This document shows positions 5,198 through 27,023 of a stretch of DNA of 28,539 nt, piece by piece. The stretch's first letter is position 1. Each line of letters opens with the position of its first letter. Position numbers and translations under genes: made by a program. Source of the DNA: a virus; the IMG/VR virus record IMGVR_UViG_3300020204_000283, positions 1 through 28,539 of that record. The stretch is one strand, 5' to 3'. The notes beneath the pieces are model-generated. The model did no database searches. It was not told the DNA's origin and saw nothing but the letters and a program-made list of their open reading frames with translations.

Positions 5198-5451
5198 TGA
5201 GAACATCAACCAGTTATGTAATGACAGTGGATCCATTATCTGCTGTGGACATGGAAAAGCTAGACGCTGTTCGTAAGACAGTATCTATGCTTAACAAGAA
5301 TTCACCTACTAAAAAATATGTTAAGCTTCATGGGCGTGGTCCTCGTATTTTACCAGCCTTTGCTGCAGGTAAAAGTATCAGTAGGTTCCAACAAGAATTG
5401 CCATTAGCTTATGCAGAACGTTTCGATGTCTATATTTACAGAAGGAGATAA
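5197..5451 (+). CDS. Small basic hypothetical protein (84 aa)
   Basis: The ATG at 5197 overlaps the preceding TAA by one base. The 84-residue product is basic, with a Gly/Arg-containing centre (K-L-H-G-R-G-P-R) and a tail ending R-F-D-V-Y-I-Y-R-R-R. Charge and the Arg-rich turn could fit nucleic-acid binding, but this is only an impression. It is followed after one base by the ATG of the next gene, so translation is coupled. Confidence 0.65.
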   Translation: MRTSTSYVMTVDPLSAVDMEKLDAVRKTVSMLNKNSPTKKYVKLHGRGPRILPAFAAGKSISRFQQELPLAYAERFDVYIYRRR

Positions 5452-5452
5452 T

Positions 5453-5692
5453 ATGACACAGCTAGACTTATTCAAAGACGAAGACCAACAAGTTAAGGAC
5501 TTCGTAGAAGCAAATTCGTTTCATCTGACTGATGACGTGGTTGACTATATCAACGAACGTCTTACTGAGATGTTTAACATCGACTATGATACTATACATG
5601 TGGATGACTTCGATACTAAGTGTGCCATGGCCGAAGCCATGATGAAGCAGATTGGTAAGAACTTACAGTCAACACCCGAGGAATGGATCTGA
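5453..5692 (+). CDS. Acidic hypothetical protein (79 aa)
   Basis: The ATG at 5453 has a full GAAGGAGAT site at 5441-5449, which decides against the in-frame upstream ATG at 5411. The protein is strongly acidic (D-L-F-K-D-E-D-Q-Q, D-D-V-V-D-Y-I, H-V-D-D-F-D-T-K) and helical. The start M-T-Q-L-D-L-F is a common opening in phage proteins but not diagnostic. It overlaps the ligase gene by ten bases. Such acidic small early proteins sometimes act as inhibitors or DNA mimics; nothing here proves that. Confidence 0.7.
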   Translation: MTQLDLFKDEDQQVKDFVEANSFHLTDDVVDYINERLTEMFNIDYDTIHVDDFDTKCAMAEAMMKQIGKNLQSTPEEWI

Positions 5693-6969
5693 CAGAAGTC
5701 TATGACATACTAGAAGATCTTGCAGCAAATCCTTCGCGGAACTATAAGATCGATCTACTAAAGAAACACGAGAACAACAAAGTGTTACGTGAAGTGGTTC
5801 GTCTAGCACTAGACCCTTTCACACAGTTTTATATTCGTAAGATCCCAAAGTACGAAGCAACTGGGAGTGGTTGCCTACTTGGTGCAATGGATCAACTGTT
5901 TGAGTTAAGCAGCCGTATCGTAACTGGTAATGCTGCCATAGAACACCTCACTCAGGTCCTTACTTCACTCTCTCCGAAAAATGCTAAGGTGCTTGAACGC
6001 ATCATAGCAAAGGACCTGAAATGTGGTGTATCTACTGCTACAGCCAACGATGTTTGGCTTGGCCTTATTTTAGATTATCCCTGTATGCTGGCTTCCCAAT
6101 ACGAACAGAAGCTTGTAGATAAGATCAATTGGCCAGCATACGTCCAATTAAAGATGGATGGCATGAGGTTTAATGCCGTTGTTCGTGATGATAAGTGCGA
6201 GTTCAAGTCTCGTAATGGTAAGACCATCGATCTACTTGGTAACCTTGAAAAAGAGTTTGTTAAGATGGCAAACGGTATGGACTGTGTGTTTGATGGTGAG
6301 CTGCTCGTCGCCGACGAAGATGGCTATCCATTGAATAGACAGACTGGTAACGGTATACTTAATAAAGCATTGAAAGGTACCATATCTGCTAAGGAAGCAG
6401 CAATGGTTCGTGCTACTGTATGGGACTTCATACCTTACATGTACTTTACATCAGGCGAATGTCCTACTCCGTACAAATCTAGGTTTGCACAGTTGGTTGA
6501 CTTACCCGAAAAGATCCAACTTGTGCCTAACTTCACTGTAGAGACCATTGAAGAGGCACAAGCAAAGTTTAAAGAGTATTACGACATTGGAGAGGAAGGC
6601 ATCATACTCAAAGATATGAACGCTCCATGGGAAAACAAACGATCTAAGTCACTTATTAAATTTAAGGGTGAGTTAGAGTGTGATTTAAAGATCGTCGATG
6701 TTGAAGACGGCACAGGTAAGTATGAAGGACTATTGGGAGCCCTCGTCTGTGAGTCAGATGATGGCATTATTAAAGTTAAAGTGGGGAGTGGATTTAACGA
6801 TGAAGATCGCGCGAAGATTAAAAAGCAAGATGTCGTTGGTAAGGTGGTGGCTGTCAGGTACAACGCTCGTATTAGGAGCAAACACGAAGGTGAGAGTTTA
6901 TTCCTCCCAATCTTTGTGGAGATCCGTGAAGACAAAGATAAAGCAGATTCGTCTGGGGCTATAAAATGA
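5683..6969 (+). CDS. 30: ATP-dependent DNA ligase (T4 gp30-like)
   Basis: This 428-residue enzyme seals nicks in duplex DNA using ATP and would join Okazaki fragments and close repair gaps in phage replication. The order of parts is a helical N-terminal region (1-130), a nucleotidyltransferase domain with motif I K-M-D-G (Lys157 takes the AMP, Asp159), the S-R-N-G box (177-180), motif III F-D-G-E-L-L (203-208), motif IV E-E-G-I-I-L-K near 305 and motif V L-I-K-F-K near 325, then an OB-fold domain to the end. T4 gp30 has its AMP lysine at 159 (K-A-D-G) and is a little longer at 487 residues. All catalytic residues seem present. The start overlaps the previous gene, and its ribosome binding site (gagg) is unusually close to the ATG, suggesting coupling. 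Confidence 0.95.
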   Translation: MDLTEVYDILEDLAANPSRNYKIDLLKKHENNKVLREVVRLALDPFTQFYIRKIPKYEATGSGCLLGAMDQLFELSSRIVTGNAAIEHLTQVLTSLSPKNAKVLERIIAKDLKCGVSTATANDVWLGLILDYPCMLASQYEQKLVDKINWPAYVQLKMDGMRFNAVVRDDKCEFKSRNGKTIDLLGNLEKEFVKMANGMDCVFDGELLVADEDGYPLNRQTGNGILNKALKGTISAKEAAMVRATVWDFIPYMYFTSGECPTPYKSRFAQLVDLPEKIQLVPNFTVETIEEAQAKFKEYYDIGEEGIILKDMNAPWENKRSKSLIKFKGELECDLKIVDVEDGTGKYEGLLGALVCESDDGIIKVKVGSGFNDEDRAKIKKQDVVGKVVAVRYNARIRSKHEGESLFLPIFVEIREDKDKADSSGAIK

Positions 6970-7630: not shown

Positions 7631-10123
7631 ATGAGTAGATTCTATACAAACGTTGTCAAATACGGCAACCAGTTATTTTTGCGTTACGTTAATAATGGTC
7701 AGGCATTCAAAAGTAAAGTACCATTTCAACCTACATTATTTCAAGCTAGTAACACTGCCGATCAATCATCTATTTGGAAAACACTGGATGGTATTCCTGT
7801 CGTGCCTAAAAAGTTTGAGTCTATCAAAGCAGCCACTGAATATATAGACTTATACAAGGACGTAGAAGGTAAAGAGTTCTTTGGTAATACACAGTTTCAA
7901 TATCAATACATCACAGAGACTTATCCTAAGACCATAAACTGGGACAAAGACCTGATTAAGTTGTACTCGATCGACATCGAGACAGCAACAGAAGATGGGT
8001 TTCCTAGCATCAAAGAAGCAAACGAAGAAGTATTGCTTATCACCATCAAGGATAATAATCATAAGCAGATAGTGACCATCGGCTCTCGTCCGTACATGAC
8101 AGACCGAAAAGATGTTAAGTTCATGCATTGTAAAGACGAAGCAGACTTACTCAAAACCTTTGTAGTGTTTTGGTCTAATAATTATCCTGACGTGATCACA
8201 GGTTGGAACATCAACTCATTCGATATCCCATACTTAGTCAATAGGATACGCTTAGTAATAGGTGATGAGTATGTCAAACGACTATCACCATGGGGTGTTG
8301 TCAACGAGAAGTCTGCTTATGTTGGCAAAGGTGAGACAATACAATCATACTCGATCTTAGGCATATCAATCCTCGATTACTTAGACTTATACAAAAAGTT
8401 TACATACACGAACCAAGAATCATACAAGCTTGACTACATAGCACACATCGAGCTTGGTAAAAAGAAGCTTGAGAATCCTGAAGATAACTTCAAAGACTTC
8501 TATACAAATCATTGGAAGACGTTTGTCGATTACAACATCCATGATACCGAACTCGTAGACGAGCTAGAAGACAAGATGAAACTCATTGAGCTTGTGTTTA
8601 CCCTAGCATATAGCTCTAAGATCAACTATGAAGATGTATTCTCTCCTGTTCGTATGTGGGACATGATCATCTTTAACTATCTACATGAACGACGTATAGC
8701 CATACCACTTAAAGAAGAGTCTACAAAGTCTGCTGAGTTTGAAGGCGCATATGTTAAGGAACCACTTGTTGGTCCACATAGATGGGTTGCATCGTTCGAC
8801 TTGAACTCACTGTATCCACACCTTATCATGCAGTATAACATGAGTCCTGAAACAATCACTGACAAGAGGTTGAACATTAATGTGGATAAACTCTTAGCAC
8901 ATGAACCTATAGAAGTCCCAGTCGGACTGTCTACATCTGCTAATGGTTGGTGTTATACTAAAGACGAGAAAGGTTTCCTTCCAGCATTGATGGAAGAGAT
9001 GTACAACAATCGTTCTAAGTTTAAGAAACAAATGTTAAAAGCAGAACAAGAATACGAACATAATAAAGATCCTCAGCTTGTCAAAGATATATCTAAGCTT
9101 AAGAACCTACAGATGGCAATGAAGATCGCATTGAACTCAGCTTATGGTGCTATCGGTAATAAATACTTCCGTTATTACGACTTACGTATAGCTGAAGGTA
9201 TCACCATATCTGGTCAGCTATCCATTAGATGGATGGCAAACAAGCTTAACGACTTCATGAATAAGACCATGAAGACTGATAACAAAGACTATGTCATAGC
9301 TATCGATACCGATTCAATATACTTATCTCTCGAAGATCTTGTAGAAAAGGTATGTGTAGACAAGACTACTGAAGAGAAGGTGGCATTCATGGATAAGACA
9401 TGTGAACGTGTCATCCAACCATTCATCGATGGTGGTTATCAAGAACTTACAACATACATGAATGCATACTCACAAAAGATGCAGATGAAACGCGAAGTGC
9501 TTGCAGATAAAGCCATATGGATCGGCAAGAAAAGATATGTGTTAAACGTACATAATTCCGAAGGAGTACAATATGCGAAACCTAAGATTAAAGTTATGGG
9601 CCTTGAAATGGTTAAATCGTCGACACCTGCTGTTGTCCGCTCGAAACTCAAGGATGCATTGGAGGTCATCTTGCATCAGGACCAAAGTGCACTTCAGACA
9701 TTCGTCCAAGAATTCAAGAAAAAATTCTCCACGCTCTCTGTCTCTGATGTCGCATTTCCTCGATCGATTTCTGGATTAAAAGAATACAATACTGCTCAAT
9801 CGATCTACAAGAAAGGTACACCTATTCAAGTTCGAGGCGCTCTACTGTTTAACTACTATCTAAAACAAAAAGGTTTGACTAAGAAGTATGAGCCAATTAC
9901 GAATGGTGGTAAGATCAAGTTTGTTTACTTACGAACACCAAATCCAATAAACGAAAACGTCATAGCATTTAACTCTGTGTTACCTAAAGAGTTTGGATTA
10001 GATGACTACATAGATTATGATACACAGTTCGAGAAAGTATTCCTTGACGCATTGGAAAACGTCATCGAACCGTTAGGATGGCATGCTGAAGAGAAAGCTT
10101 CTCTTGAGTCTTTCTTTGGTTAG
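7631..10123 (+). CDS. 43: Family B DNA polymerase with 3'-5' exonuclease (T4 gp43-like)
   Basis: This 830-residue protein is the replicative polymerase. The exonuclease domain carries Exo I S-I-D-I-E-T (Asp115, Glu117), Exo II G-W-N-I-N-S-F-D-I-P near 192-201 and Exo III Y-N-I-H-D-T-E near 301-307. The polymerase domain carries motif A F-D-L-N-S-L-Y-P (Asp390), motif B K-I-A-L-N-S-A-Y-G near 498-506 and motif C I-D-T-D-S (Asp559, Asp561). All metal ligands are present, so both activities should be intact. T4 gp43 has 898 residues; the shortening is spread out and no domain is missing. There is no ribosome binding site, and the promoter places the transcript start on the ATG. The 3' end overlaps the start of a lipoprotein gene by 41 bases. 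Confidence 0.97.
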   Translation: MSRFYTNVVKYGNQLFLRYVNNGQAFKSKVPFQPTLFQASNTADQSSIWKTLDGIPVVPKKFESIKAATEYIDLYKDVEGKEFFGNTQFQYQYITETYPKTINWDKDLIKLYSIDIETATEDGFPSIKEANEEVLLITIKDNNHKQIVTIGSRPYMTDRKDVKFMHCKDEADLLKTFVVFWSNNYPDVITGWNINSFDIPYLVNRIRLVIGDEYVKRLSPWGVVNEKSAYVGKGETIQSYSILGISILDYLDLYKKFTYTNQESYKLDYIAHIELGKKKLENPEDNFKDFYTNHWKTFVDYNIHDTELVDELEDKMKLIELVFTLAYSSKINYEDVFSPVRMWDMIIFNYLHERRIAIPLKEESTKSAEFEGAYVKEPLVGPHRWVASFDLNSLYPHLIMQYNMSPETITDKRLNINVDKLLAHEPIEVPVGLSTSANGWCYTKDEKGFLPALMEEMYNNRSKFKKQMLKAEQEYEHNKDPQLVKDISKLKNLQMAMKIALNSAYGAIGNKYFRYYDLRIAEGITISGQLSIRWMANKLNDFMNKTMKTDNKDYVIAIDTDSIYLSLEDLVEKVCVDKTTEEKVAFMDKTCERVIQPFIDGGYQELTTYMNAYSQKMQMKREVLADKAIWIGKKRYVLNVHNSEGVQYAKPKIKVMGLEMVKSSTPAVVRSKLKDALEVILHQDQSALQTFVQEFKKKFSTLSVSDVAFPRSISGLKEYNTAQSIYKKGTPIQVRGALLFNYYLKQKGLTKKYEPITNGGKIKFVYLRTPNPINENVIAFNSVLPKEFGLDDYIDYDTQFEKVFLDALENVIEPLGWHAEEKASLESFFG

Positions 10124-10499
10124 TATACAAGGCTGTGCTATCTTAGGAGTCGGTGGTGCATATCAAACTATTGATAATGTATCTACTGGTGTAAACGTAG
10201 TATCGTATGGCGCTACAGGAAAAGGATTATCAGATCATGCTGCATCTACTATCACAGGCAAAGATTGCCAAATGTTTAACGTATTACAACATAAAAATAT
10301 TTGTAGGATAAGGAAAACTTATGAAGTGCGACATCTGCAAGAAGGAAATAAACAGCAGTTGCAAGTGGAAACCTTGCCAACTATTAAAGTACCTAAAGAA
10401 AGGAAAAAACTAAATGTCACAAGATTGGGTAAAAGACATGAACGACATGCACGCAAAGTTCGGTGTGCGAGAAGTCGTGTCAAAAATGGATGCAAATAA
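10083..10499 (+). CDS. Predicted lipoprotein overlapping the polymerase 3' end
   Basis: ATG 10083 opens a lipoprotein signal: M-L-K-R-K, hydrophobic residues 6-14, then S-I-Q-G-C with Cys18 as lipidation site. Residues 19-78 are Gly/Thr/Val-rich and carry G-K-D-C and N-I-C-R, a pattern I recall from small bacterial and phage lipoproteins of about 80 residues. The frame stays open to 10499, 138 residues in all. Its last 60 residues become very basic and overlap two better-supported genes (10321-10413 and the start of the 10414 gene), so the functional end may be near 10310-10320 and the rest a read-through or an assembly frameshift. It lies where T4 keeps imm, between genes 43 and 42. Confidence 0.6.
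   Translation: MLKRKLLLSLSLVSIQGCAILGVGGAYQTIDNVSTGVNVVSYGATGKGLSDHAASTITGKDCQMFNVLQHKNICRIRKTYEVRHLQEGNKQQLQVETLPTIKVPKERKKLNVTRLGKRHERHARKVRCARSRVKNGCK
10321..10413 (+). CDS. 30-residue Cys-rich peptide, possible zinc knuckle
   Basis: ATG 10321 follows AAGGAAAA at 10310-10317, and TAA 10411-10413 directly abuts the ATG of the next gene. The peptide starts M-K-C-D-I-C-K-K-E-I and has Cys at 3, 6, 14 and 19 with six Lys in its second half. A CxxC followed by two more Cys could bind one zinc ion. It overlaps the extended C-terminal frame of the lipoprotein. The ribosome binding site and perfect abutment favour a real gene; the length keeps confidence moderate. Confidence 0.5.
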   Translation: MKCDICKKEINSSCKWKPCQLLKYLKKGKN

Positions 10500-17022: not shown

Positions 17023-17640
17023 ATGCTCAATTTTAAAGAATATATAAAAGAACAACAGGAATTTAAGCCAGGTTACCTAACCATATTTGACATAGATGAC
17101 ACTCTATTCCATACGACTGCCAAGATCATAATACGTAAGTCTGGTAAGGCTATAAAGAAGCTTACTAGTGGTGAGTTTAATACCTATAAATTAGGTCCTG
17201 GAGAGTCCCCAGACTTCTATGAGTTCGAAGATGCAGAGAAGTTCAATAAAGAATCTAAGCCAATCACTAAGATGTTTAATAAGGCTAAGGCCCTCTTAGC
17301 TGATACCAAGAAGCATCCAAACAACAAAGTAATCATAGTCACAGCAAGGCCAAACCTAGACGATAGGGAAACCTTCTTAAATACATTTAGGAAGTTTAAC
17401 TTTGACATCGATAAGGTTCGAGTAGAAAGGGCTGGAAGGATCAGTTCTTTAAACGCGGCCCAAAGTAAAGCTGTCATCATCAATAACTACTTGAAAACAA
17501 AACAGTTTGACAAAGTTAGGCTGTTTGACGATAGTATAAATAATCTTAATGAGTTTCTCAAGTTAGAGAAACATTTCCCAAGCATTAAATTTACTGCTTG
17601 GCATGCACATACAGATGGGACAGTGAGACAAGTCAAATGA
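17023..17640 (+). CDS. HAD-superfamily phosphatase with capsid-targeting-like N-terminus
   Basis: This 205-residue protein has the haloacid dehalogenase motifs: F-D-I-D-D-T-L-F (Asp23 nucleophile, Asp25 acid/base), I-V-T-A-R-P near 105-110 as motif II, Lys in S-K-A-V-I-I-N-N near 150, and L-F-D-D-S-I-N-N near 172-179 as the acidic motif IV. It should be a magnesium-dependent phosphatase; the substrate is unknown, and 3'-phosphate ends of nucleic acids or nucleotides are possible. The first ten residues, M-L-N-F-K-E-Y-I-K-E, form the leader shared by neighbouring late genes and resembling the T4 capsid-targeting peptide M-K-T-Y-Q-E-F-I-A-E. The stop overlaps the ATG of the ligase-like gene, so the two are made together. 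Confidence 0.85.
   Translation: MLNFKEYIKEQQEFKPGYLTIFDIDDTLFHTTAKIIIRKSGKAIKKLTSGEFNTYKLGPGESPDFYEFEDAEKFNKESKPITKMFNKAKALLADTKKHPNNKVIIVTARPNLDDRETFLNTFRKFNFDIDKVRVERAGRISSLNAAQSKAVIINNYLKTKQFDKVRLFDDSINNLNEFLKLEKHFPSIKFTAWHAHTDGTVRQVK
17535..17543 (+). promoter_or_regulatory. Possible late promoter inside the HAD gene
   Basis: TATAAATAA is an exact late box, about 95 bases before ATG 17637. It lies in the codons of the D-S-I-N-N motif, so the sequence could be dictated by the protein. The flanks resemble those of the late boxes at 20278 and 26063. Confidence 0.4.
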
Positions 17641-18821
17641 TTAAGTTTACAGAATTCTTAACAGAAGCCGCAGATGACGGCAAATTAAAGCATATCCACC
17701 ATCCAGAGGATCGTCCACTGATGCATGGTAAAAAGGGGTTTGAACATGCCTTTGGTGCTTTAAGTCAAGCACATGAACACTTAAAGTCTGGTAAGAAGAG
17801 CACTGATATGACCATGAAGTATGATGGCTCTCCAGCTATTGTATTCGGTCATCACCCAAAGACAGGTAAGTTCTTCGTAGCTTCTAAGTCTGCATTCAAC
17901 AAGAACCCAAAGATTAACTATTCTTTAGAAGACATCGAACGTAATCACGGTCATGCTCTAGGTCTTGTACAAAAACTATCTGCAGCATTAGAACACCTAC
18001 CTAAAGTATCACCTAAGAAGGGTGTATTCCAAGGTGACATGATGTTTAGTCACGGAGATGTGGTGCATAACCCAAACGGATCAGCTTCATTTACACCGAA
18101 CACCATCACTTACTCTGCTCATGGTACAGAAGCTAACAATATTAAGAAAGCAAAGGTTGGTGTAGTCGTACACCAACAGTATCGTGGATTAGATTTACAT
18201 ACTATGAAGGCTAGTCCTAATATCGAACATAAGTTTAAAGCACATCCAGATGTATGGCATAAAGGTGCAGAACATGATACATCGTTCACTAACTACTCGC
18301 CTAAGTCACAACTAGAATTTAATAAACACATGGAGAAAGCTAAGGCTATCCATGATACACATCATAAGACGATGTATCCGCTTACAGAGCCTCATCATGG
18401 AGAAGGCGGCCATCTAGCTACATATATAAACAAAACGGTCAGGAACGATGAGAAGCCAACACCACGTGGCTTTCAACAGCATATCCTTGACAGATCACAA
18501 GCATCACAAGATAAACTTAAGACTGCTGCAGCTGCACAGAAGAAACAAGCTGAGGCAAGATCACACGTTGATCATATACAGAAAAACAAAGAACACTATG
18601 ATAATTTATTGAAGATGCACCAGCATCTAGCAGCGGCAAAGAACACGTTGGTGTCAGCGCTTAATGCCCATCCCGGTACATTAAGTCATCATATCAATGG
18701 TAAACCAACTGCACCTGAAGGTTTTGTAGTACACCATCAGAACGAGCCAACTAAGTTGGTTAATCGAGCAGAGTTTAGTAAAGCAAACCTTTTAAAAGGA
18801 AAAAAGAATGTTAACATTTAA
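17637..18821 (+). CDS. KxDG nucleotidyltransferase-like protein (RNA/DNA ligase-like), packaged-protein leader
   Basis: ATG 17637 (ATGA junction with the HAD gene) gives a 394-residue protein starting M-I-K-F-T-E-F-L-T-E-A-A, a capsid-targeting-like leader with a canonical L-x-E|A cleavage site. The next part looks like a ligase-type nucleotidyltransferase domain: K-Y-D-G-S-P-A-I-V-F-G with Lys61 as candidate nucleotide-accepting lysine, F-V-A-S-K-S-A-F at 80-87, F-Q-G-D-M-M-F at 131-137 where ligase motif III reads F-D-G-E-L, and K-V-G-V-V-V at 173-178 as a motif IV-like strand. I recall a phage family of unknown function (DUF6267) with these boxes. The Lys/His-rich C-terminal 200 residues are unrecognised. 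Adenylyl transfer to RNA or DNA ends is an inference. Confidence 0.65.
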   Translation: MIKFTEFLTEAADDGKLKHIHHPEDRPLMHGKKGFEHAFGALSQAHEHLKSGKKSTDMTMKYDGSPAIVFGHHPKTGKFFVASKSAFNKNPKINYSLEDIERNHGHALGLVQKLSAALEHLPKVSPKKGVFQGDMMFSHGDVVHNPNGSASFTPNTITYSAHGTEANNIKKAKVGVVVHQQYRGLDLHTMKASPNIEHKFKAHPDVWHKGAEHDTSFTNYSPKSQLEFNKHMEKAKAIHDTHHKTMYPLTEPHHGEGGHLATYINKTVRNDEKPTPRGFQQHILDRSQASQDKLKTAAAAQKKQAEARSHVDHIQKNKEHYDNLLKMHQHLAAAKNTLVSALNAHPGTLSHHINGKPTAPEGFVVHHQNEPTKLVNRAEFSKANLLKGKKNVNI

Positions 18822-19098
18822 AGAGTATCTATTAGAGTATGCGATCGACGCTAAAGGTCATAAGTCTTCTACAGGCGGGTTGACTAAGAAAGGTGTTGAT
18901 GCATACAACAGAGAAAACCCTGGCAGCAACTTAAAGATGGCCGTAACTACAAAACCATCTAAGTTAAAACCTGGAAGCAAAGCAGCAGGCCGACGTAAGT
19001 CATTCTGTGCTCGTATGGGTGGAGTCAAAGGCCCAATGAAGGACGAGAACGGTAAACCAACAAGGAAGGCACTTGCCTTAAGGAAATGGAATTGCTAA
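18808..19098 (+). CDS. Small basic phage protein with packaged-protein leader (96 aa)
   Basis: AAAAGGAAAA at 18796-18805 precedes ATG 18808, which overlaps the previous gene by 14 bases. The first residues M-L-T-F-K-E-Y-L-L-E repeat the capsid-targeting-like leader. The rest is strongly basic: G-G-L-T-K-K-G-V-D-A-Y-N-R-E-N-P, then R-R-K-S-F-C-A-R-M-G-G-V-K-G-P-M-K and a C-terminal L-R-K-W-N-C. I recall this last box from a small family of unknown function in marine phages and large viruses (DUF6321 or similar). High charge and two Cys would suit DNA binding in the head. Confidence 0.75.
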   Translation: MLTFKEYLLEYAIDAKGHKSSTGGLTKKGVDAYNRENPGSNLKMAVTTKPSKLKPGSKAAGRRKSFCARMGGVKGPMKDENGKPTRKALALRKWNC

Positions 19099-19697
19099 AC
19101 TTTAAAGAATACTTAAAAGAAGAAACTGATGCTAAGCACCATGTCTTAGCATTTGGTCGTATGAACCCACCTACAACTGGTCATATGAAGGTGATTGATA
19201 AGGTGCACGATGTTGCGGCTAAACATAGCGCTAGTCATGGCGTCGTTACTTCACATAGCCAAGACAAGAAGAAAAACCCTTTGACTGCTGCACAAAAGTT
19301 GAAACATTTAAAACGTTATTCTCCACAGACAAACTTTAAAGCATCATCTCCTGAGAGTCCAACTATACTACATCATGCTGCTGATCTACATAAGAAAGGT
19401 ATAACACACTTACATGTGGTGGTTGGTTCTGATCGTAAGAAAGAGATGCATGATTTACTACATAAGTATAATAATAAAGAATCTGGTCATGGTCATTATA
19501 ACTTTAAGAAGATAACTGTACATTCTGCAGGTAGTAGAGACCCAGATGCTGAAGGTACTAGTGGAGTATCAGGTACTAAACAAAGAGAACATGCCGCGAT
19601 AAAACACTTTGACAAGTTTAAGAAGGGCGTGCCTTCACATGTATCAGATGCACACGCTAAAGAATTAATGCACGACGTACACCATGGGATGAAATAA
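19092..19697 (+). CDS. HxGH-superfamily nucleotidylyltransferase with packaged-protein leader
   Basis: I place the start at TTG 19092, not ATG 19086: AAGGA at 19080-19084 is seven bases before the TTG but only one before the ATG, and the TTG start yields M-L-N-F-K-E-Y-L-K-E, the shared leader. The 201-residue protein carries F-G-R-M-N-P-P-T-T-G-H at 21-31, the cytidylyltransferase/NMN adenylyltransferase signature with Thr in place of the first His, and V-S-G-T-K-Q-R at 159-165, the S-x-T-x-x-R nucleotide-binding box. It should transfer a nucleotide from an NTP to a phosphate group; NMN, phosphopantetheine or a sugar phosphate are candidates. Unusually many His and Lys occur in it. Confidence 0.8.
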   Translation: MLNFKEYLKEETDAKHHVLAFGRMNPPTTGHMKVIDKVHDVAAKHSASHGVVTSHSQDKKKNPLTAAQKLKHLKRYSPQTNFKASSPESPTILHHAADLHKKGITHLHVVVGSDRKKEMHDLLHKYNNKESGHGHYNFKKITVHSAGSRDPDAEGTSGVSGTKQREHAAIKHFDKFKKGVPSHVSDAHAKELMHDVHHGMK

Positions 19698-20044
19698 TGA
19701 AACAACTAATCTTAGCATCACTATTATTAACTGGCTGTAGCTTCATCATGCCAGTACCACATGATCCAGCCGAAGCTGCAAAGCTCGTGGATGTTAAACA
19801 GAAGATGGAGACTCTAACCTGTGATGCTACAAAGGACTTCCCAAGATGGCAGTCAACCGTAGACGACCTTAGATGGTTAAACCTATACACAGAGTTTAGA
19901 GCAGACCCACAAGCAAAGACTATTGAGGAACTATATTTCGCAATCCAAAAGGCTAGGGACGGTTCAGTACCTTACTGTGAAGCCGCTTTAAAACTACAAA
20001 AGACTCGTATTCAAGTAATCGAGAAAGCATGGAAAGGAAGGTAA
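19697..20044 (+). CDS. Phage lipoprotein (115 aa)
   Basis: The ATG at 19697 overlaps the preceding TAA. M-K-Q-L-I-L-A-S-L-L-L-T-G-C is a compact lipoprotein signal with Cys14 lipidated; the +2 residue is Ser, which favours the outer membrane. The mature protein is helical, with two further Cys (L-T-C-D, Y-C-E-A) that could pair, and a Lys-rich tail. I recall similar short lipoproteins in T4-like marine phages but no function. It lacks the packaging leader of its neighbours. An outer-membrane spanin or an exclusion factor are possible roles. Confidence 0.72.
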   Translation: MKQLILASLLLTGCSFIMPVPHDPAEAAKLVDVKQKMETLTCDATKDFPRWQSTVDDLRWLNLYTEFRADPQAKTIEELYFAIQKARDGSVPYCEAALKLQKTRIQVIEKAWKGR

Positions 20045-20045
20045 T

Positions 20046-20282
20046 ATGTCAGTATTAGACGACTTAAGAACGGCAATGAAAGAGCCAGGCATCAAAGGTG
20101 CATTGGCCCAACAACTACATGACATCACAGAACAATACAATGATGGCATCCTTACAGAAGCTGAATTTAAAGACTTGGTAGAACAGATTGCTGATGTCCA
20201 AGCTAACGATGAGCTTGCAGGAGATGAGGTAACTTCAAGATGGGTCGTAAATATAACTAAAGTGATTCTCTCGGCCGTATAA
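20046..20282 (+). CDS. Small acidic helical protein (78 aa)
   Basis: AAGGAAGG at 20034-20041 precedes ATG 20046. The protein is almost entirely helical and acidic (M-S-V-L-D-D-L-R-T-A-M-K, then L-T-E-A-E-F-K-D-L-V-E-Q-I), ending in a short hydrophobic V-V-N-I-T-K-V-I-L-S-A-V. The L-T-E-A-E-F part resembles the short C-terminal helical hairpins often seen in small bacterial proteins, which is not specific. The stop codon TAA lies inside the TATAAATAA late promoter of the next gene. Confidence 0.7.
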   Translation: MSVLDDLRTAMKEPGIKGALAQQLHDITEQYNDGILTEAEFKDLVEQIADVQANDELAGDEVTSRWVVNITKVILSAV

Positions 20283-20286
20283 ATAA
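20278..20286 (+). promoter_or_regulatory. T4-type late promoter
   Basis: TATAAATAA at 20278-20286 is an exact late box. The transcript would start near 20291, 24 bases before ATG 20315, with a weak ATGGAATA site in between. The box contains the TAA stop codon of the preceding gene. Confidence 0.8.
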
Positions 20287-20314
20287 TAGTAATACCTTAT
20301 ATAGATGGAATAAA

Positions 20315-21988
20315 ATGAAGAACTATAGACAGCTTATCAAAGAACTGCCTTCCAAGACGCTTATAATGTCTGTTGGAAGCTTTAACCCGCCTACTCTCCA
20401 AAGCGAGATGGCTTTCAAGCTAGTCGAGAAGCTAGTTGAGACTCATAATGCTGACCATGTCATATACGTGACAGAGGAAGCAAACAACCTCCCAGTAGAC
20501 AGAAAGATACACTTCCTTGATCTCATGTTCAATAAGTTAAACTTTCGTCCATTGTCAGAGGAGAAGCTAGTATCAGAGATCGGTAAGTTAAAGTCAAGGT
20601 ATAAGAACGTCATCGTAGTTACTTCAGAAGACAAGTCTAAGCTATACGAGTCAATGCAAGTGGTATCCACAGGATACCCTGACGTAGAAACACCTAAGCT
20701 CCGTTCAATGGTTACCAAAGGTGACTATCAAACATTTAAGAAAAACCTCCCGTCCTCAGTAAGAGACATCGATGCAAGACGCATGATGAACGAAATGAGA
20801 CAAGCTCAAGGGCTTGAGTTCATCAAGGAAGACGTTAAGTTCTCTGTAGACATGTTAAGAGACAAGTACTTTAAAGGTGAGATCTACCACATCGGTGACA
20901 TCGTTGAGTCTGCTGGACAACAATATGAAATCATGGACCGTGGATCAAACTACCTAGTGGTCGTCAATAACACAGGTGACTTATCACGTAAATGGGTAAA
21001 AGACGTGACTCTAGTCGAAGCATGCTGGAAAGGCTATAAAGCAAAAGGCCTCAAGAAAAAGGGCAACAAGATGGTGCCTAACTGTGTACCTGAGGAAGTC
21101 AAAGAAGACACAGACCCACAAGTATCCTATAAAGGATACACTACAAAGAACATGCATCACAGCGCTGACTTAGCTAAGACATTCAAGCTCGCTTCAGCAG
21201 ACGCTAAGGATCCAATAGCTATGCTTAATGCTATCAAGACTACAGACACATACTTAGAGCTACATAACGATAGAGGTGATAATCCTACACTCGACCAGCT
21301 CAAGACATGGAAACATGCACACATCAAAGCTAAAGAAGCCTTACAAAAGATCGGTCACTTTGATGCACACCAAGAACACTGGCTACAAAGCTCAGAAGCT
21401 CTAGACAAGATGTTGATACCTCATGCTTCGAAGTTAAGAGAAGAGTTAGACATCGGTAAGCATAGTAATCAAAACATCGAGCGTTCTGTAACCATGTTCC
21501 AAAACTTCATGAAGATGGGTAAAAAAGAACCTGGCTTCATCAAAGACCCTAAATCAGGCGACTTAGCTAAACCTATAGAGCCAAACGTTAGTCAACAGAT
21601 AGATGACTTAGAGCCAAATTGGCCAAGACATGTACAGACAAAAGTTGGTCATACGTTAGCTACGCGAGACCACCTTCGCAGACAAAAAGTGCAATACGCT
21701 ACAGAATCTACAAACATATTGGTAGGTGACATGATGGATGAGGACTTTGCTGTTAAGTTTTCTGAAAGTCATGGCGGAGAAGTAGGAGACGGTATAGGAG
21801 ATGAAGACATAACGAAAGTTAAGTCGATACCACCACACCTTGTACCTAAAAAAGAATTCGGTGATGTTTCTAAACAAAAGGGTAAAGGGTTCTCTGCATT
21901 GTTTAATGGCAAAGAGAACGTGGACTTTGACTTTCAAACATTTAAAAACTATAGGTTGCAAAGAGAACAAGGAAAAAAGAATAAATAG
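20315..21988 (+). CDS. Virion-associated multidomain protein with degenerate nucleotidylyltransferase domain
   Basis: This 557-residue protein starts M-K-N-Y-R-Q-L-I-K-E, which fits the capsid-targeting pattern. Residues 15-170 keep the nucleotidylyltransferase fold (S-V-G-S-F-N-P-P-T, then P-V-D-R-K-I-H-F-L), but the H-x-G-H site reads T-L-Q-S (27-30), so catalysis is probably lost. Residues 185-230 resemble a small beta-barrel (G-Q-Q-Y-E-I-M-D-R-G). Then comes L-V-E|A-C-W-K-G-Y-K (233-242) with K-K-K-G-N-K-M-V-P-N-C-V, a box I recall from many marine phage head-associated proteins; L-V-E|A fits a gp21 protease site. The remainder is charged, helical and unrecognised. A late promoter lies directly upstream. 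I infer an internal head protein cut into pieces. Confidence 0.65.
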   Translation: MKNYRQLIKELPSKTLIMSVGSFNPPTLQSEMAFKLVEKLVETHNADHVIYVTEEANNLPVDRKIHFLDLMFNKLNFRPLSEEKLVSEIGKLKSRYKNVIVVTSEDKSKLYESMQVVSTGYPDVETPKLRSMVTKGDYQTFKKNLPSSVRDIDARRMMNEMRQAQGLEFIKEDVKFSVDMLRDKYFKGEIYHIGDIVESAGQQYEIMDRGSNYLVVVNNTGDLSRKWVKDVTLVEACWKGYKAKGLKKKGNKMVPNCVPEEVKEDTDPQVSYKGYTTKNMHHSADLAKTFKLASADAKDPIAMLNAIKTTDTYLELHNDRGDNPTLDQLKTWKHAHIKAKEALQKIGHFDAHQEHWLQSSEALDKMLIPHASKLREELDIGKHSNQNIERSVTMFQNFMKMGKKEPGFIKDPKSGDLAKPIEPNVSQQIDDLEPNWPRHVQTKVGHTLATRDHLRRQKVQYATESTNILVGDMMDEDFAVKFSESHGGEVGDGIGDEDITKVKSIPPHLVPKKEFGDVSKQKGKGFSALFNGKENVDFDFQTFKNYRLQREQGKKNK

Positions 21989-21991
21989 AAA

Positions 21992-22444
21992 ATGGACAAA
22001 CTAATAGCATCTTTAAAAGTAATCCTTGGTAATACGTTCGTCATGTATTTCAAGACCCATTCATATCATTGGAACGTTGAAGGCATAAACTTCAGTCAGT
22101 ATCATGACTTCTTTGCCACGATCTATGAAGACTTATATGGTGCTGTAGACCCATTTGCAGAAGAGATTAGAAAGCTAGATACTTATGCTCCTATCAGCTT
22201 GATGGAGTTATATAACTATAAGACTATCACAGAAGACGCTACAAAACCAACAACTATCCATGAGATGTTAGTCAACTTGTTGATGGCAAACACAGAATTA
22301 TTATCTGCTTTGTCTGCAGCCTTTGATACAGCTACAGCTGAAAAACAACAAGGCCTTGCAAACTACATAGCAGATCGTATGGCCGCACATAAGAAACATG
22401 AATGGATGTTAACAGCATCACTTAAGAACATTGGAGGAGTGTAA
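21992..22444 (+). CDS. Dps-family ferritin-like protein
   Basis: This 150-residue protein has the Dps signature H-S-Y-H-W-N-V-E-G (23-31), F-S-Q-Y-H-D-F-F (34-41), then Y-E-D-L, and D-P-F-A-E-E-I-R (53-60). The ferroxidase ligands are all present: His26, His38, Asp53 and Glu57, matching His51, His63, Asp78 and Glu82 of E. coli Dps. Dps dodecamers oxidise and store iron and protect DNA from peroxide; many bind DNA through a Lys-rich N-terminal tail, which is very short here. It lies between two predicted internal head proteins and has no targeting leader. It could act in the infected cell or be enclosed with the DNA. The ribosome binding site is weak and the stop overlaps the next ATG. Confidence 0.9.
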   Translation: MDKLIASLKVILGNTFVMYFKTHSYHWNVEGINFSQYHDFFATIYEDLYGAVDPFAEEIRKLDTYAPISLMELYNYKTITEDATKPTTIHEMLVNLLMANTELLSALSAAFDTATAEKQQGLANYIADRMAAHKKHEWMLTASLKNIGGV

Positions 22445-25400
22445 TGAAGACGCTAAAAGAGTTTAACTTACAGATAAACGAAGTATTAAGAGCATCTGAT
22501 CCCATTGATAAATGGATCTCAGACTTCGTACACTCTAAGAATGCTAAGTTTGCTGGTAAGACTACTAAAGAACGCATCGAGATGGCAAAAGGTGCATACT
22601 ATGGTGCACAAAAACATAGGATGACTAGAATGGAATCGGTAGCAGTATCGCAAAATAGTGCAGCTAAAGTAGATATGAGAGAAGCCGCGCGTGAACATTT
22701 AGTACATGTTAACGATGGTTCTAAGTATGACGAAGAGCCTCATGAAAAAGATGTAGAGCATATCATGGCTGGTGTTAAACAACATGGTGGTGAACACGCT
22801 GGTGCATCTGACAAAGGTGTATTCTTTAAGTTCAAATCAAAAGAACATGCTGATGCATTTAAAGCTCATGCCAATAAATGTCCTAATAAATCATGCGACG
22901 CAGAGCATGTTACAGAAGGATATGAGAATGACATGGCTGATAAGAAAAAGGTATTGAACCCTCCAATTCCACTAACACAAAAGAAAAAGGCTGTTAAAGA
23001 CTTCCTCAAGAAAGAGGAAGCAGAACTAGACGAAGGTAAAGTATACGACCCTATCACTAAGAAGATGGTAGCTAGTAAACCTATCAAAGTTCAAGCTGGT
23101 GGAGGTGCTACAAGAAACGGTGTTCCTGTAGAGACTGGTCCATCTAAATACAAGAGTAAGCTGCCTATGAGTAAAGCTGCTGCAGTATTAGCTGCAGAAG
23201 AGATAGGAATAGATGAAGGCGATAACGGTTTAGCAGCAAAAGCTAAGAAGTCTGGTGTATCCTTATCTACACTCAAGACAGTATACAAGAGAGGCGTAGC
23301 CGCATGGAACTCCGGTCATCGTCCAGGTACAACGCCTGCACAATGGGGTATGGCACGCGTTAACTCATACATCACAAAGGGTAAAGGTACATATCACGGA
23401 GCCGATAAAGACCTACGTGAAGACGCACGTCTTGATAAGAAAGAATACCATAAAGGTATGAGTGCTGCTACCGCAAAAGCTCGTGTAGCACATTGGAAAA
23501 AAGCAGATAAGATGTCTGACAGCAATCCAAAGGCATATAAGCCAGCACCTGGTGACAAGACTGCAAAGACTACACCAAGCGTACATACTAAGAAGTACCA
23601 TGCTATGTACGGAGAAGCTAAAGAAGGTAAAAATAAGTGGCACATCTATGATACTAAGACAAGAGAAGTTCATAGTACATATAATAATAAGAATGTAGCC
23701 ATACGTAAGTATGAAGAACTAAACGATAAGCATAAGGGTTATGATAGTCCAGGTGGTTTAGTACACTCTAAATATGGTCTTAGACAAGAGCTACAGAAAG
23801 AAGAGACAGAGATCAATGAGATATCTAAATATACATTAGCTAGATATATCGATAAGGCTGCACAAGACGTACATGATAAAGCTTTAGCTGCTGGTTCACA
23901 TCATGGCGGTAAGAGCTATAAAGAATTCATGAAGAACTATACTAAGTCTGGTAAAAGACAAGCTGGTATCACTAGAGCTGCAGTTAAGCTTGCTACACAA
24001 AAAGAAGAGGTACAAGTAGACGAAGCTATCGCTAAGAAGTTGCCAGTACAGCATGCAGTGAATGCTGTAACTAAGACATTAGGTTCACAAGCTGCTACAA
24101 GGTTCTTAGGTCATCTAAAACCTGGTACAGATAAACATACATCATGGGATAAAGTAAACGATGCTTTGATGAAGCAAGGTGTACAAACACATCACATCGC
24201 TTCTATAGCACAAAAGACTTCTCATGAAAACATGAATGAATCAAGAGGTCATAAAGTATTAGCAACGTTCTTTAAGAACAGAGAAGTTGCACAAAGAGCT
24301 TTTACTGGCCAAAATCAACCTAAAGCTGCTGAACCAAAAGAAACTGATAAAAATAAGTTGCCTATGAGTAAAGCTGCAGCAGTATTAGCAGCAGAAGATC
24401 AATACACTTCAGAGTATAAGATCAAGTATTATGTAGACCCGATTACTGGTGAGAACAAACAAAGAAAGATTAGGCCTCACCGTGTCAACTTTAAAAACAG
24501 TAAGATGCATGGAGAACCAGTACAACAAGATGCACAAGCAGATTACGGCATGAAAGAAGGATATGTAGCAGAAGGTGGTTTCGATAACTATCATGAGATA
24601 GCTAAGGAACTTGTTAAACGTCATGGTAAGAACGTTGATTCTGGTCATATCAATGACATAGCTGGCGAGAGAGATACTCACAGAGGTCTTGATCATTCCG
24701 AAGTCATGCATCATGTTAACAAGATACTAAACAAAGAAGTTAAAGAAGGTGATGAGTATGATGAAGTATGGAAAGAATACAAAGGAAAAACATTTAAAAA
24801 GGAAAGTCGTATGATTAATTTTAAAGACTACTTAAAAGAAGCTTTATCAGCTAAACAAAAGAAGATCGCTGCTATCGCTGGCGATAAAGATAAGATCGAT
24901 GCTGATGATCTAGCTGCTTTAAGAGCTGGTAAGAAGCCTGTAGAAGAAGCTAAGAAGTGCATGGACGAAGATGACATGGACGAATCAGGTCTTCGTATGG
25001 CTGCACACGCGGCTCATAAAGCTGGTAAGAAAGAGTTTGAGTTTCAAGGCAAGACTTATCCAGTTAAAGTACAAAAAGAAGGCGTGTTAAAGCCTGAACT
25101 TGAAAAAGGTTTCCCTGCACGTGGTGTAAAGACTGGTGCTTCTGCCCCAAAAGGTACAACATACATGCCTAAGAAAAATGTTAAAGAAGAAGTAGAACAG
25201 ATCGACGAGTTATCTAAGAAGACACTAGGTTCTTATGCGCATAAAGCTGTCGATGACACGCAAGATAAAGTTCATGATGCTTATGATTCAGGAACACCAA
25301 CAAGACATGAACTTGAGGTGCAAGGTGGAAAAAATAATGATGGAAAATACGGATATAAACCTCTTCAAAATAGATTAACTGGTGTAGCAAGAGCTGCAAA

Positions 25401-26067
25401 AAGATTAGGTGATAAAGAAATTTCTAAGCGCACTGAAAAATCAGTAGCTCACCATCTTAAACAAAGATATCATTATGATAATATGGATGATAGAAAGGCA
25501 GCCAATTCTGATAATGCTGCACGTCATCAATATTATCGCGCAAAAGATCATATTGAAAAAGCTTCAGGAGTTAAAGAAGAAGTAGAGTTAGACGAAGGTC
25601 GCATGAAAGAACTTGCAATGGATCTTAAAGATATGAGCCATGACGAGTTTCATAAACATTATGGTAAGCCTAAATCATACTATGATCCATTAAACTTCAA
25701 GAAGCCAGTACAAAAAGGCCATGAAATGGATCGTGCTAAAGCTTTAGCTCAACGTGGTATCCAATCTTTATCTAAAGAAGAAGTAGAACAAGAAATGTCA
25801 CCATACCTAAAAGCAACACTTGCAGTTATGGATGAATCAAAGTACGACGATTATAAAGATGCATTAAGATCTAAGAAAGCTACTCAATCTGCATATGATA
25901 AAGACTTTAAGCCAGACACAACTCATCCACATATTCAAGTGGTTAAGGGTACACAGTATGGCGGAGAGAACCAAAAAGATGATGACTATGATGAGAAGCC
26001 TGATGAACCAAAAGAGAAGCGCGGACGTGGCAGACCAGCGGGATCTAAGTCAGGTGCTAGAGTATAA
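22444..26067 (+). CDS. Giant internal-head polyprotein (1207 aa)
   Basis: This is a very charged, Lys/Glu/His-rich mosaic. It starts M-K-T-L-K-E-F-N-L-Q-I-N-E, a divergent targeting leader. Modules in order: D-P-I-D-K-W-I-S-D-F-V-H-S (about 19-31); a DUF5824-like helical part (262-325, with K-R-G-V-A-A-W-N-S-G-H-R-P-G); K-A-R-V-A-H-W-K-K (about 345-353) through K-A-Y-K-P-A-P-G-D; two related helical repeats starting I-N-E-I-S-K-Y-T-L (about 456) and I-D-E-L-S-K-K-T-L (about 919); and a second leader M-I-N-F-K-D-Y-L-K-E-A at 790-800. Sites of the T4 gp21 type occur at L-D-E|G (195-198), I-D-E|G (256-259), L-K-E|A (797-800) and L-D-E|G (1049-1052), with looser ones between. I infer that it is cut into several head peptides. 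Family names are from memory. Confidence 0.7.
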   Translation: MKTLKEFNLQINEVLRASDPIDKWISDFVHSKNAKFAGKTTKERIEMAKGAYYGAQKHRMTRMESVAVSQNSAAKVDMREAAREHLVHVNDGSKYDEEPHEKDVEHIMAGVKQHGGEHAGASDKGVFFKFKSKEHADAFKAHANKCPNKSCDAEHVTEGYENDMADKKKVLNPPIPLTQKKKAVKDFLKKEEAELDEGKVYDPITKKMVASKPIKVQAGGGATRNGVPVETGPSKYKSKLPMSKAAAVLAAEEIGIDEGDNGLAAKAKKSGVSLSTLKTVYKRGVAAWNSGHRPGTTPAQWGMARVNSYITKGKGTYHGADKDLREDARLDKKEYHKGMSAATAKARVAHWKKADKMSDSNPKAYKPAPGDKTAKTTPSVHTKKYHAMYGEAKEGKNKWHIYDTKTREVHSTYNNKNVAIRKYEELNDKHKGYDSPGGLVHSKYGLRQELQKEETEINEISKYTLARYIDKAAQDVHDKALAAGSHHGGKSYKEFMKNYTKSGKRQAGITRAAVKLATQKEEVQVDEAIAKKLPVQHAVNAVTKTLGSQAATRFLGHLKPGTDKHTSWDKVNDALMKQGVQTHHIASIAQKTSHENMNESRGHKVLATFFKNREVAQRAFTGQNQPKAAEPKETDKNKLPMSKAAAVLAAEDQYTSEYKIKYYVDPITGENKQRKIRPHRVNFKNSKMHGEPVQQDAQADYGMKEGYVAEGGFDNYHEIAKELVKRHGKNVDSGHINDIAGERDTHRGLDHSEVMHHVNKILNKEVKEGDEYDEVWKEYKGKTFKKESRMINFKDYLKEALSAKQKKIAAIAGDKDKIDADDLAALRAGKKPVEEAKKCMDEDDMDESGLRMAAHAAHKAGKKEFEFQGKTYPVKVQKEGVLKPELEKGFPARGVKTGASAPKGTTYMPKKNVKEEVEQIDELSKKTLGSYAHKAVDDTQDKVHDAYDSGTPTRHELEVQGGKNNDGKYGYKPLQNRLTGVARAAKRLGDKEISKRTEKSVAHHLKQRYHYDNMDDRKAANSDNAARHQYYRAKDHIEKASGVKEEVELDEGRMKELAMDLKDMSHDEFHKHYGKPKSYYDPLNFKKPVQKGHEMDRAKALAQRGIQSLSKEEVEQEMSPYLKATLAVMDESKYDDYKDALRSKKATQSAYDKDFKPDTTHPHIQVVKGTQYGGENQKDDDYDEKPDEPKEKRGRGRPAGSKSGARV
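23158..23199 (+). repeat. In-frame repeat, copy 1 (KLPMSKAAAVLAAE)
   Basis: This 42-base segment encodes the same 14 residues as 24355-24396. The two differ at a few silent positions (ctg/ttg, gct/gca), so the repeat is kept at protein level. Here it precedes the I-D-E|G site. Confidence 0.85.
24355..24396 (+). repeat. In-frame repeat, copy 2 (KLPMSKAAAVLAAE)
   Basis: Second copy of the 14-residue segment of 23158-23199. It is followed by D-Q-Y-T-S-E instead of a clean cleavage site. Silent differences from copy 1 show that it is not a recent exact duplication. Confidence 0.85.
24799..24813 (+). promoter_or_regulatory. Internal ribosome binding site and start in the polyprotein
   Basis: AAGGAAAG lies about five bases before an in-frame ATG at 24811. 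That ATG begins M-I-N-F-K-D-Y-L-K-E-A, a near-perfect copy of the leaders that begin separate genes at 17023, 17637, 18808 and 19092. Internal initiation would make a 418-residue C-terminal protein with its own leader. Confidence 0.55.
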
Positions 26068-26071
26068 ATAA
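26063..26071 (+). promoter_or_regulatory. T4-type late promoter
   Basis: TATAAATAA is an exact late box that contains the TAA stop of the polyprotein gene. The transcript would start near 26076 and carry AAGGAG (26084-26089) ahead of ATG 26097, the best late promoter and ribosome site pair in the window. Confidence 0.85.
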
Positions 26072-26096: not shown

Positions 26097-27023
26097 ATGG
26101 CTTTATGGGGAAAATCAGATACTTTAGCGGCATCGCCAAAGTATGTAACTAGAAAGGCGGTGTTCGATGCGCAGAGCAAAGTTAGTTCAGCAAATGACAC
26201 TATCGATCTATCAAGTGCAAATACAAATTTTTCAACAGGTGATGGCGTTGTTTACACTGGTGCTAGCGGCATTGGTTTAACACAAGACACATCATACTAT
26301 GTGATGAGACAAACAGATAACACAATTAAGTTAGCAACTACAGAAGCTGGCGCTAAAGCTGGTGCAACTGGTATTAACCTAACAGCTGGTGCAACAGGTG
26401 CTATTGGTTTCTTACAACGTAATGCTGAAGGTAATGAATCTACTGCAGCAGGTAACGGCGACCATATCAACAACGGAAGCGACCTCTACTTCATCGATGC
26501 TGACGAAGCTCAACAAGCAGAGAACAAAGCTCGCGGATTAACAGGTCCTGGTTGGTGGTTATATCGTTCATGGACAAATGCAGACGGTTCAGTACAACAT
26601 AGAGCAGAATGCTTGATCGCTATGGGCGCATACTCAGGTGCTACAGGTGTTGGTACATACCAAGCTCAAACTGGTGATGCTTCAGATGATTCAGTTTTAG
26701 TAGATGCTACAGTATCTATTACTACACAACCATCTAATGTTTCTGTAACTGCTCCAGCTACAGCTTCATTCTCAATAGTTGCTGCAATTGCTGGCGCTGG
26801 TTCATTGACATATCAATGGCAAATCCAACAATCAGGTGTTGGTGCATTTGCTGACGTAACTACTGGTTCAGGTGGCACAACTGCTACATATACAACTGCT
26901 GCAACTGCAGTAGCTGCAGGAGCTGGTGCTACAAACGGTGATAAGTTCCGTTGTATCGTTGGTGCTTCAACAGGTAATACAGACGTTACATCTAATGCTG
27001 TAACATTAACAGTAACAGCTTAA
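26097..27023 (+). CDS. Virion structural protein with C-terminal Ig-like domain
   Basis: This 308-residue protein is poor in charge and rich in Gly, Ala, Thr and Ser, as phage surface proteins are. Residues 1-12 (M-A-L-W-G-K-S-D-T-L-A-A) are an opening I recall from marine T4-like virion proteins. Residues 30-110 hold repetitive Thr/Gly beta segments. The last hundred residues (about 206-307) form an Ig-like domain: I-T-T-Q-P-S-N-V-S-V, then L-T-Y-Q-W-Q-I-Q-Q-S and D-K-F-R-C-I-V-G-A with the core Trp and Cys. Such domains decorate phage capsids and may bind carbohydrates. It has its own late promoter and a strong terminator, so it is probably made in large amounts. It may be a head decoration protein. 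Confidence 0.8.
   Translation: MALWGKSDTLAASPKYVTRKAVFDAQSKVSSANDTIDLSSANTNFSTGDGVVYTGASGIGLTQDTSYYVMRQTDNTIKLATTEAGAKAGATGINLTAGATGAIGFLQRNAEGNESTAAGNGDHINNGSDLYFIDADEAQQAENKARGLTGPGWWLYRSWTNADGSVQHRAECLIAMGAYSGATGVGTYQAQTGDASDDSVLVDATVSITTQPSNVSVTAPATASFSIVAAIAGAGSLTYQWQIQQSGVGAFADVTTGSGGTTATYTTAATAVAAGAGATNGDKFRCIVGASTGNTDVTSNAVTLTVTA

Follow-up and report, generated by a model that had tools for sequence, protein, structure and literature searches.

A ten-residue leader resembling the T4 capsid-targeting sequence probably addresses enzymes and a modular polyprotein to the head of an uncultured T4-related phage

A gene cluster (positions 17023 to 26067) in the IMG/VR record IMGVR_UViG_3300020204_000283, a 28.5 kb piece of the genome of an uncultured T4-related phage (28,539 nucleotides and 39 genes; the window hereafter), encodes non-homologous proteins that begin with variants of one ten-residue leader. 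We consider it very likely that this leader is a T4-type capsid-targeting sequence that loads the proteins behind it into the head for delivery to the host; packaging would follow from what is seen in relatives of the phage, and cleavage and delivery from T4 and from the conservation of the cleavage site. The nearest annotated genomes were those of Kyanoviridae (HTVC008M, Melnitz and phage C48C1), all of them distant, where the gene order around the cargo cluster was similar. Closer but partial relatives were present in IMG/VR, among them the 160 kb contig G001, whose cytidylyltransferase was 76% identical to that of the window. Whole genomes were examined for six relatives: the three named above, S-CREM2, G001 and G003.

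The pattern M-x-x-[FYL]-x-x-[FYLW]-[LIVFM]-x-E was matched exactly at the start of 5 of the 39 window genes, compared to 0.037 expected (P = 4e-10) from the chance rate of this strict pattern (8 of 8,540 internal 10-mers of the same window proteins). The narrower form M-x-x-[FY]-x-x-[FYL]-[LI]-x-E likewise fits the starts of five genes. Reading the N-termini directly upheld the initial annotation, which had assigned a shared leader to genes 17023, 17637, 18808, 19092 and 20315 (Table 1), and counting looser variants the leader occurred in seven places of the window. If cleavage is assumed after the first [LI]xE, the presumed propeptide has 10 residues in these five genes and 13 in gene 22444, whose leader had been described as looser; the start of 22444 is indeed leader-like, but its length and the leucine at position 4 set it apart. 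That the proteins behind the leader are unrelated also held, as DUF6267, DUF6321, two types of nucleotidylyltransferase and a HAD motif were recognised among them. In six-frame scans, leader matches were confined to the cargo cluster at 49-61 kb in G001 and to 137-141 kb in G003; a looser pattern gave two extra G001 matches elsewhere, each at a start that lies within another frame or runs against one. The strict regular expression found no matches in HTVC008M and Melnitz, yet the N-termini of their clusters are similar to the leader (MQGFKTFLSE, MKKFSELTSE, MKTLKELLRK), so that the leader appears to be looser in these phages.

Orthologues were gathered by searches in which the leader had been removed from the query. 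In the DUF6267 family (17637), F4, F/Y7, L/I8 and E10 were each found in 43 of 43 distinct N-termini, these four positions being fixed, and in the cytidylyltransferase family (19092) the leader was present in 44 of 49, with F4 in 41, E10 in 43 and often L/I at position 7; in both families it precedes a spacer variable in length and sequence. In T4 IPIII, targeting is controlled by residues 4 and 7 and processing by residues 8 and 10, and T4 propeptides, 10-19 residues long, are removed by gp21 after L/I-X-E (PMC9026906). The conserved positions of the leader are therefore those of the IPIII mutational data, which supports its identity as a capsid-targeting sequence. The T4 sequence on which the comparison had been based, MKTYQEFIAE, was found on two T4 internal proteins, and the claimed agreement in aromatic positions stood for most leaders, the departures being 20315 (Leu7) and 22444 (Leu4). 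A weight matrix derived from environmental leaders and built without T4 or S-CREM2 sequences was run on 2,020 T4 candidate starts. It ranked gp24, a gp21 substrate according to the T4 annotation, 2nd, IPIII and IPII 3rd and 4th, and IPI 8th (genes that we took to be the internal protein genes from their length and sequence). The top T4 match, MLLEFKQFLYEASIDEF (NC_000866, 114210-114440, + strand), begins at an ATG that is preceded by GGAG and lies within the annotated uvsW (UvsW.1 region).

When IMG/VR was searched with two degenerate DNA leader patterns, at least 120 stretches were obtained with each. Among the matches listed, the leader was located at a gene start (no more than 30 codons from a stop codon) in 119 of 126 and 119 of 122, whereas a scrambled-order control matched 28 times across the whole collection, with 12 of these at gene starts (Fisher P = 2e-9 for the first pattern against the control); chance and codon composition were ruled out as explanations by this control. 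After removal of the leader, the leader-bearing proteins clustered into at least 76 single-linkage families, and the domains found among the matches listed included S-adenosylmethionine (SAM) lyase, ADP-ribosyltransferase, GNAT, methyltransferase, RimK ATP-grasp, DnaJ and chitinase/lysozyme. An S77 (gp21-type) protease was encoded in 13 of 15 long leader contigs compared to 1 of 9 control contigs (P = 5e-4); the control contigs were shorter on average, and among those of at least 58 kb it was found in 0 of 4 (P = 0.004). In one uncultured phage (L194), two leader proteins (8966-10207 and 5283-5924, both - strand) look ADP-ribosyltransferase-like by eye (WRG/YRG motif) and functionally recall T4 Alt; a pooled Pfam scan gave one ADPrib_exo_Tox match, for a member that it did not name.

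Relatives of gp21 and gp22 were encoded in all six genomes examined. Moreover, near residue 50-60 the major capsid precursors of five of them have the endings seen in the leaders, of the general type [FL]-[LI]-x-E/A (FLSE/A in Melnitz, FLTE/T in C48C1, LLTE/A in S-CREM2, ALFE/A in G001 and YITE/T in G003), at the place where T4 gp23 has FLTE/A, which we take to be its cut site.

Evidence from virions comes from published proteomes of relatives. The S-CREM2 virion proteome comprises 52 proteins (PMC10665884). Of the 219 proteins annotated in S-CREM2, five have a clean leader, and each of these was virion-detected (P = 6.5e-4; P = 4.4e-5 among proteins not named structural): the SAM hydrolase gp6 (MKDFDSFLEE), gp13 (MKDLHSFLTE), the kinase gp14 (VKRFDAFLTE), gp136 (MQTFSMFFSE) and the cytidylyltransferase gp154 (MKNFSSFLTE). 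Without gp154, an orthologue of a family used in training, detection was 4 of 4 (P = 2.7e-3; non-structural P = 3.1e-4). These P values are optimistic, because the pattern was chosen after the N-termini had been seen. With the weight matrix, which had not been trained on S-CREM2, the top 4 of 219 proteins were all virion-detected (P = 2.9e-3), as were 6 of the top 8. The Cas9-like gp12 has RFASFMAE slightly inside its annotated start, and undetected neighbouring genes (gp8-gp11 and others) lack the leader. In S-SM1, a virion-detected cytidylyltransferase (PMC3037559) begins with MKKFSAFLNE, so that leader-bearing relatives of 19092 have been found by mass spectrometry in the virions of two phages. 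The proposal that the phage packs a set of enzymes with its DNA is thus supported, through relatives, by gp21 and by virion detection, from which we infer packaging here. All computable checks suggested with the initial annotation gave results in its favour. As a general predictor of virion proteins the leader score was rejected, since most virion proteins have no leader and the leader marks a subset. Two further observations were made in these phages. The S-CREM2 region OR473000 3837-13331 (- strand) looks like a second cargo locus: it encodes the SAM hydrolase, the Cas9-like nuclease, an APH-like kinase and two small proteins, each of them detected in virions and almost every one carrying the leader. 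Small nucleotidyltransferase-like proteins in G001 (46178, - strand) and S-CREM2 (gp156, virion-detected) have a shorter leader-like start (MKYAQYISE and MKKLISE, respectively).

Several observations weigh against this interpretation or limit it. The gp21-type protease, present in 6 of 6 relatives and 13 of 15 leader contigs, was not found in the 28.5 kb window, and the HTVC008M capsid site (FLGE) is less clear. A slightly looser pattern also takes S-CREM2 gp30 (MNFKKWFKE), which was not virion-detected, and when leader scores were compared over all S-CREM2 non-structural proteins, virion and non-virion proteins did not differ significantly (Mann-Whitney P = 0.13). The S-CREM2 authors themselves weighed cargo and contamination, as abundant non-structural proteins may be contaminants (PMC10665884). 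Some orthologues lack the leader (DUF6267 of S-SM1; HAD genes). Of 14 distinct orthologue N-termini of 17023 (HAD), no more than 4 have the complete leader; several others retain FKE[YF] without LxE, and some have no leader at all. Gene 20315 has leucine in place of an aromatic residue at position 7, and its orthologues keep E10 in 9 of 13 cases, with G or Q in 4 of 13. Both genes are thus weak members of the set. It could be argued that the N-terminal motif marks something else in late proteins, such as translation efficiency or another partner, and that its likeness to T4 arose by convergence: ten residues are few, 20315 retains the motif as a conserved N-terminus without a spacer, and HAD orthologues retain FKEY and lose LxE. 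However, modules that carry the leader elsewhere also follow [LI]xE when located within a longer protein, and no translation signal could explain this; the leader is, moreover, associated with gp21 and with virion detection, so we regard convergence as very improbable.

A second alternative is that the leader sends proteins to the prohead core as scaffold-like helpers of assembly, which would then be removed or stay as structural filler, none being delivered. The T4 core proteins gp22 and gp67 offer a precedent, as they are digested by gp21 and their pieces mostly exit the head (PMC9026906), and several pieces of the polyprotein encoded by 22444 are small and basic, with no enzyme domain seen. 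Against this, the clearest leaders belong to enzymes, and elsewhere the leader precedes SAM lyase, ADP-ribosyltransferase, GNAT, methyltransferase and J-domain proteins, which fits host-directed cargo. We therefore hold the helper role to be unlikely and delivery of cargo to be the better reading.

The 1207-residue product of 22444 is a modular polyprotein in which only DUF5824 was recognised by a domain scan, and its modules are joined by linkers of the KEEVEQIDE/ type. In G001 it corresponds to two genes, the second of which begins with MLKFNDFLKE at the position matching 24811, whereas in the window the two are fused and the second leader remains. This agrees with the internal leader start that the initial annotation had placed at 24811, and the good ribosome-binding site preceding it means that a second product may still be made. 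The window protein contains more [LI][DEN]E motifs than expected (6 compared to 1.4, P = 0.0025), as do the two G001 proteins (7 compared to 1.1 and 9 compared to 1.5), suggesting that gp21 cuts the polyprotein at these repeated linkers into several pieces. It is also conceivable, although we rate it only as a lesser possibility, that the linkers are inherited parts of duplicated repeats that stay uncut, the protein being one long structural or tape-like molecule. Several linkers do lie within homologous repeats (the LSKKTLGSY family) and are hence not independent, and enrichment of plain [LI]xE was not significant in the window protein (9 compared to 7.4 expected). On the other hand, the linkers precede unrelated modules (GRMKELA, GKVYDP, DUF5824, DUF6321, KWIDDFVHS), and other phages encode some of these modules as genes of their own with a leader. 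Such modules recur elsewhere behind an N-terminal leader or a different linker: DUF5824 is preceded by LEE, IDE, IDE and LDE in four settings, one of which is a free gene with the leader MITFKKYLEE in C48C1, DUF6321 is preceded by [LI]xE in 27 of 28 distinct contexts (11 leaders and 16 internal linkers), and one contig has a DUF6267-cytidylyltransferase fusion with IKE at the junction. This interchange of modules between leader and linker settings is the strongest argument that what is conserved is a cut site. A fixed register of the site before DUF6321 was considered and discarded, as the distance, 7-8 residues in 16 of the 17 internal cases, ranged from 2 to 9 where the site belongs to an N-terminal leader.

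Among the individual leader genes, the open reading frame list places the start of DUF6267 at a TTG (17598), whereas the ATG at 17637 is the start kept in 43 of 43 distinct orthologue N-termini. Its predicted model had an overall predicted local distance difference test score (pLDDT) of 87, with the first 15 residues below 50, as expected if the leader is an added tag. The motif I KxDG lysine (K61-x-D63-G64) was invariant in 31 sequences, and among the matches listed by VIA-align 50 of 50 structures were ligases (best match Z 8.8, root-mean-square deviation 3.8 across 182 residues); Foldseek with the model gave no significant match (best E 0.2) and a PDB sequence search gave no matches. DUF6267 thus probably folds like an RNA ligase, an assignment of fold and not of function. 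The cytidylyltransferase gene starts at a TTG with AAGGA 7 bases upstream, giving LLNFKEYLKE; the alternative ATG at 19086 would yield MELLNFKEYLKE. The 17023 product, in which DIDDTL is the HAD motif, had a weak PHROG polynucleotide kinase match (E = 2.3e-6), and by the T4 rule a protein that retains F4 and F7 and lacks LxE would be packaged but would escape cleavage. We would guess that the RNA-ligase-like DUF6267 and the polynucleotide-kinase-related HAD protein may form a nucleic-acid repair set delivered at entry. In the predicted model of 20315, the first ten residues were of middling confidence. A Ferritin/Dps-like gene without leader (21992-22444) sits within the cargo cluster, and in G001 a GIY-YIG-like endonuclease gene (L014, 11228-11827), judged from sequence alone, lies directly before the second nucleotidylyltransferase gene. 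Gene 15957 was dismissed as cargo, since it has no leader and gave no match when compared directly with a leader-bearing protein of supposedly the same PHROG.

The cluster is probably expressed late, together with head proteins. The sequence TATAAATA, which we take to be the T4 late promoter, occurs upstream of 20315 and of the head-protein gene 26097, and in G001 it stands 24-60 bases before the tail-sheath-, tail-tube- and scaffold-like genes, the first cargo gene and the head gene after it. The count of TATAAATA in the window alone was not above chance; it is the placement before structural and cargo genes that suggests that cargo is made alongside the head. A copy at 15945 was discounted as a promoter, being too near its gene.

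Table 1 Leader genes, predicted cleavage sites and associated features in the window (all on the + strand)
Feature	Position	Strand	Leader or sequence	Basis or remark
HAD-type phosphatase-like gene	17023..17640	+	MLNFKEYIKE (17023-17052)	DIDDTL motif; PHROG
DUF6267, RNA-ligase-like fold (probable)	17637..18821	+	MIKFTEFLTE (17637-17666)	Domain match, N-termini; predicted cut before AADDG
DUF6321 small basic protein	18808..19098	+	MLTFKEYLLE (18808-18837)	Domain match
Cytidylyltransferase-like, TTG start	19092..19697	+	(M)LNFKEYLKE (19092-19121)	Domain and PHROG matches
Second nucleotidylyltransferase-like protein	20315..21988	+	MKNYRQLIKE (leader-like)	PHROG match and predicted fold
1207-residue modular polyprotein	22444..26067	+	MKTLKEFNLQINE (22444-22482)	Leader of 13 residues
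Predicted gp21-type site	23026..23034	+	LDE197/GKVYDP	
Predicted gp21-type site	23209..23217	+	IDE258/GDNGLAAK	DUF5824 module start
Predicted gp21-type site	23812..23820	+	INE459/ISKYTLARY	
Internal leader	24811..24840	+	MINFKDYLKE	AAGGA 7 bases before ATG
Predicted gp21-type site	25201..25209	+	IDE922/LSKKTLGSY	
Predicted gp21-type site	25588..25596	+	LDE1051/GRMKELAMDL	
Putative T4-type late promoter	20278..20285	+	TATAAATA	29 bases upstream of 20315
Putative T4-type late promoter	26063..26070	+	TATAAATA	26 bases upstream of 26097
Head protein (phrog_613)	26097..27023	+	No leader	PHROG match; context only

Taken as a capsid-targeting sequence, the leader would act as follows. Cargo proteins would be made late in infection and docked on the prohead core through leader residues 4 and 7, and during head maturation a gp21-type protease would cleave after [L/I]-x-E (residues 8-10). 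The freed RNA-ligase-like enzyme, cytidylyltransferase, small basic protein and probably others would remain inside the head alongside the DNA and accompany it into the next host; the 1207-residue protein would be loaded likewise, with cuts at its repeated [LI][DNE]E linkers dividing it into several pieces. The cargo might serve nucleic-acid repair or counter-defence at entry.

The arrangement resembles that of IPI, IPII and IPIII of T4 (Tequatrovirus) in the ten-residue N-terminal leader, with its key positions 4, 7, 8 and 10 and [L/I]-x-E, in the unrelated proteins behind it and in the gp21-type protease, seen here in relatives. It differs in that the phage lies far outside Tequatrovirus, the gene cluster is longer, the cargo includes ligase-like and nucleotidylyltransferase enzymes where the T4 proteins are small restriction inhibitors, and a polyprotein has the leader at an internal junction as well. 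T4 Alt is an ADP-ribosyltransferase that is packaged and injected; the wider contig set likewise contains a leader-bearing protein of ADP-ribosyltransferase fold, whereas the window showed no recognisable Alt homologue. The inner-body and ejection proteins of phiKZ and SPN3US likewise belong to a large set of head proteins that a gp21-related protease cuts, many of them delivered with the DNA (PMC9026906, PMC10052503); phiKZ, however, cuts after S/A-X-E, whereas the site here is L/I-X-E and the leaders have L/I/V, not S/A, at position 8. Polyvalent proteins are multi-domain proteins thought to be packaged, delivered and possibly cut into parts, and they combine enzyme domains, an internal peptidase domain being present in some of them (PMC5512222). 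The 1207-residue protein, in contrast, has small modules lacking assigned roles and repeated sites of prohead-protease type, and with DUF5824 alone recognised it falls short of the two disparate enzyme domains, at least, that define that class.

Internal proteins bearing a capsid-targeting sequence are known in T-even phages (PMC12373910, PMC3012670). In a search largely confined to open-access papers, we found no report of such a leader in aquatic T4 relatives, cyanophages among them, nor on such enzymes or inside a polyprotein, and the accessible passages of the S-CREM2 proteome paper do not mention it (PMC10665884). The T4 capsid-targeting system probably extends well beyond the T-even phages, to enzyme and polyprotein cargo, and we lean towards the broader view that in a wide range of environmental T4-related phages a portable ten-residue address, in essence that of T4, loads dozens of unrelated protein families, many of them enzymes, into the heads, and that some of these phages load polyproteins cut by gp21 to release many small effectors. 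If so, the leader alone would predict delivered phage proteins from sequence. Cytidylyltransferases, kinases, a SAM hydrolase and a Cas9-like nuclease have been left unexplained or viewed as possible contaminants in cyanophage virion proteomes, and a shared targeting leader would give a reason for their presence. The leader may be a general signal for packing foreign proteins into heads outside T4; it would provide a sequence rule for spotting delivered proteins in abundant aquatic phages, most of whose genes lack assigned roles, and would allow tests of which enzymes are carried into the host along with the DNA.

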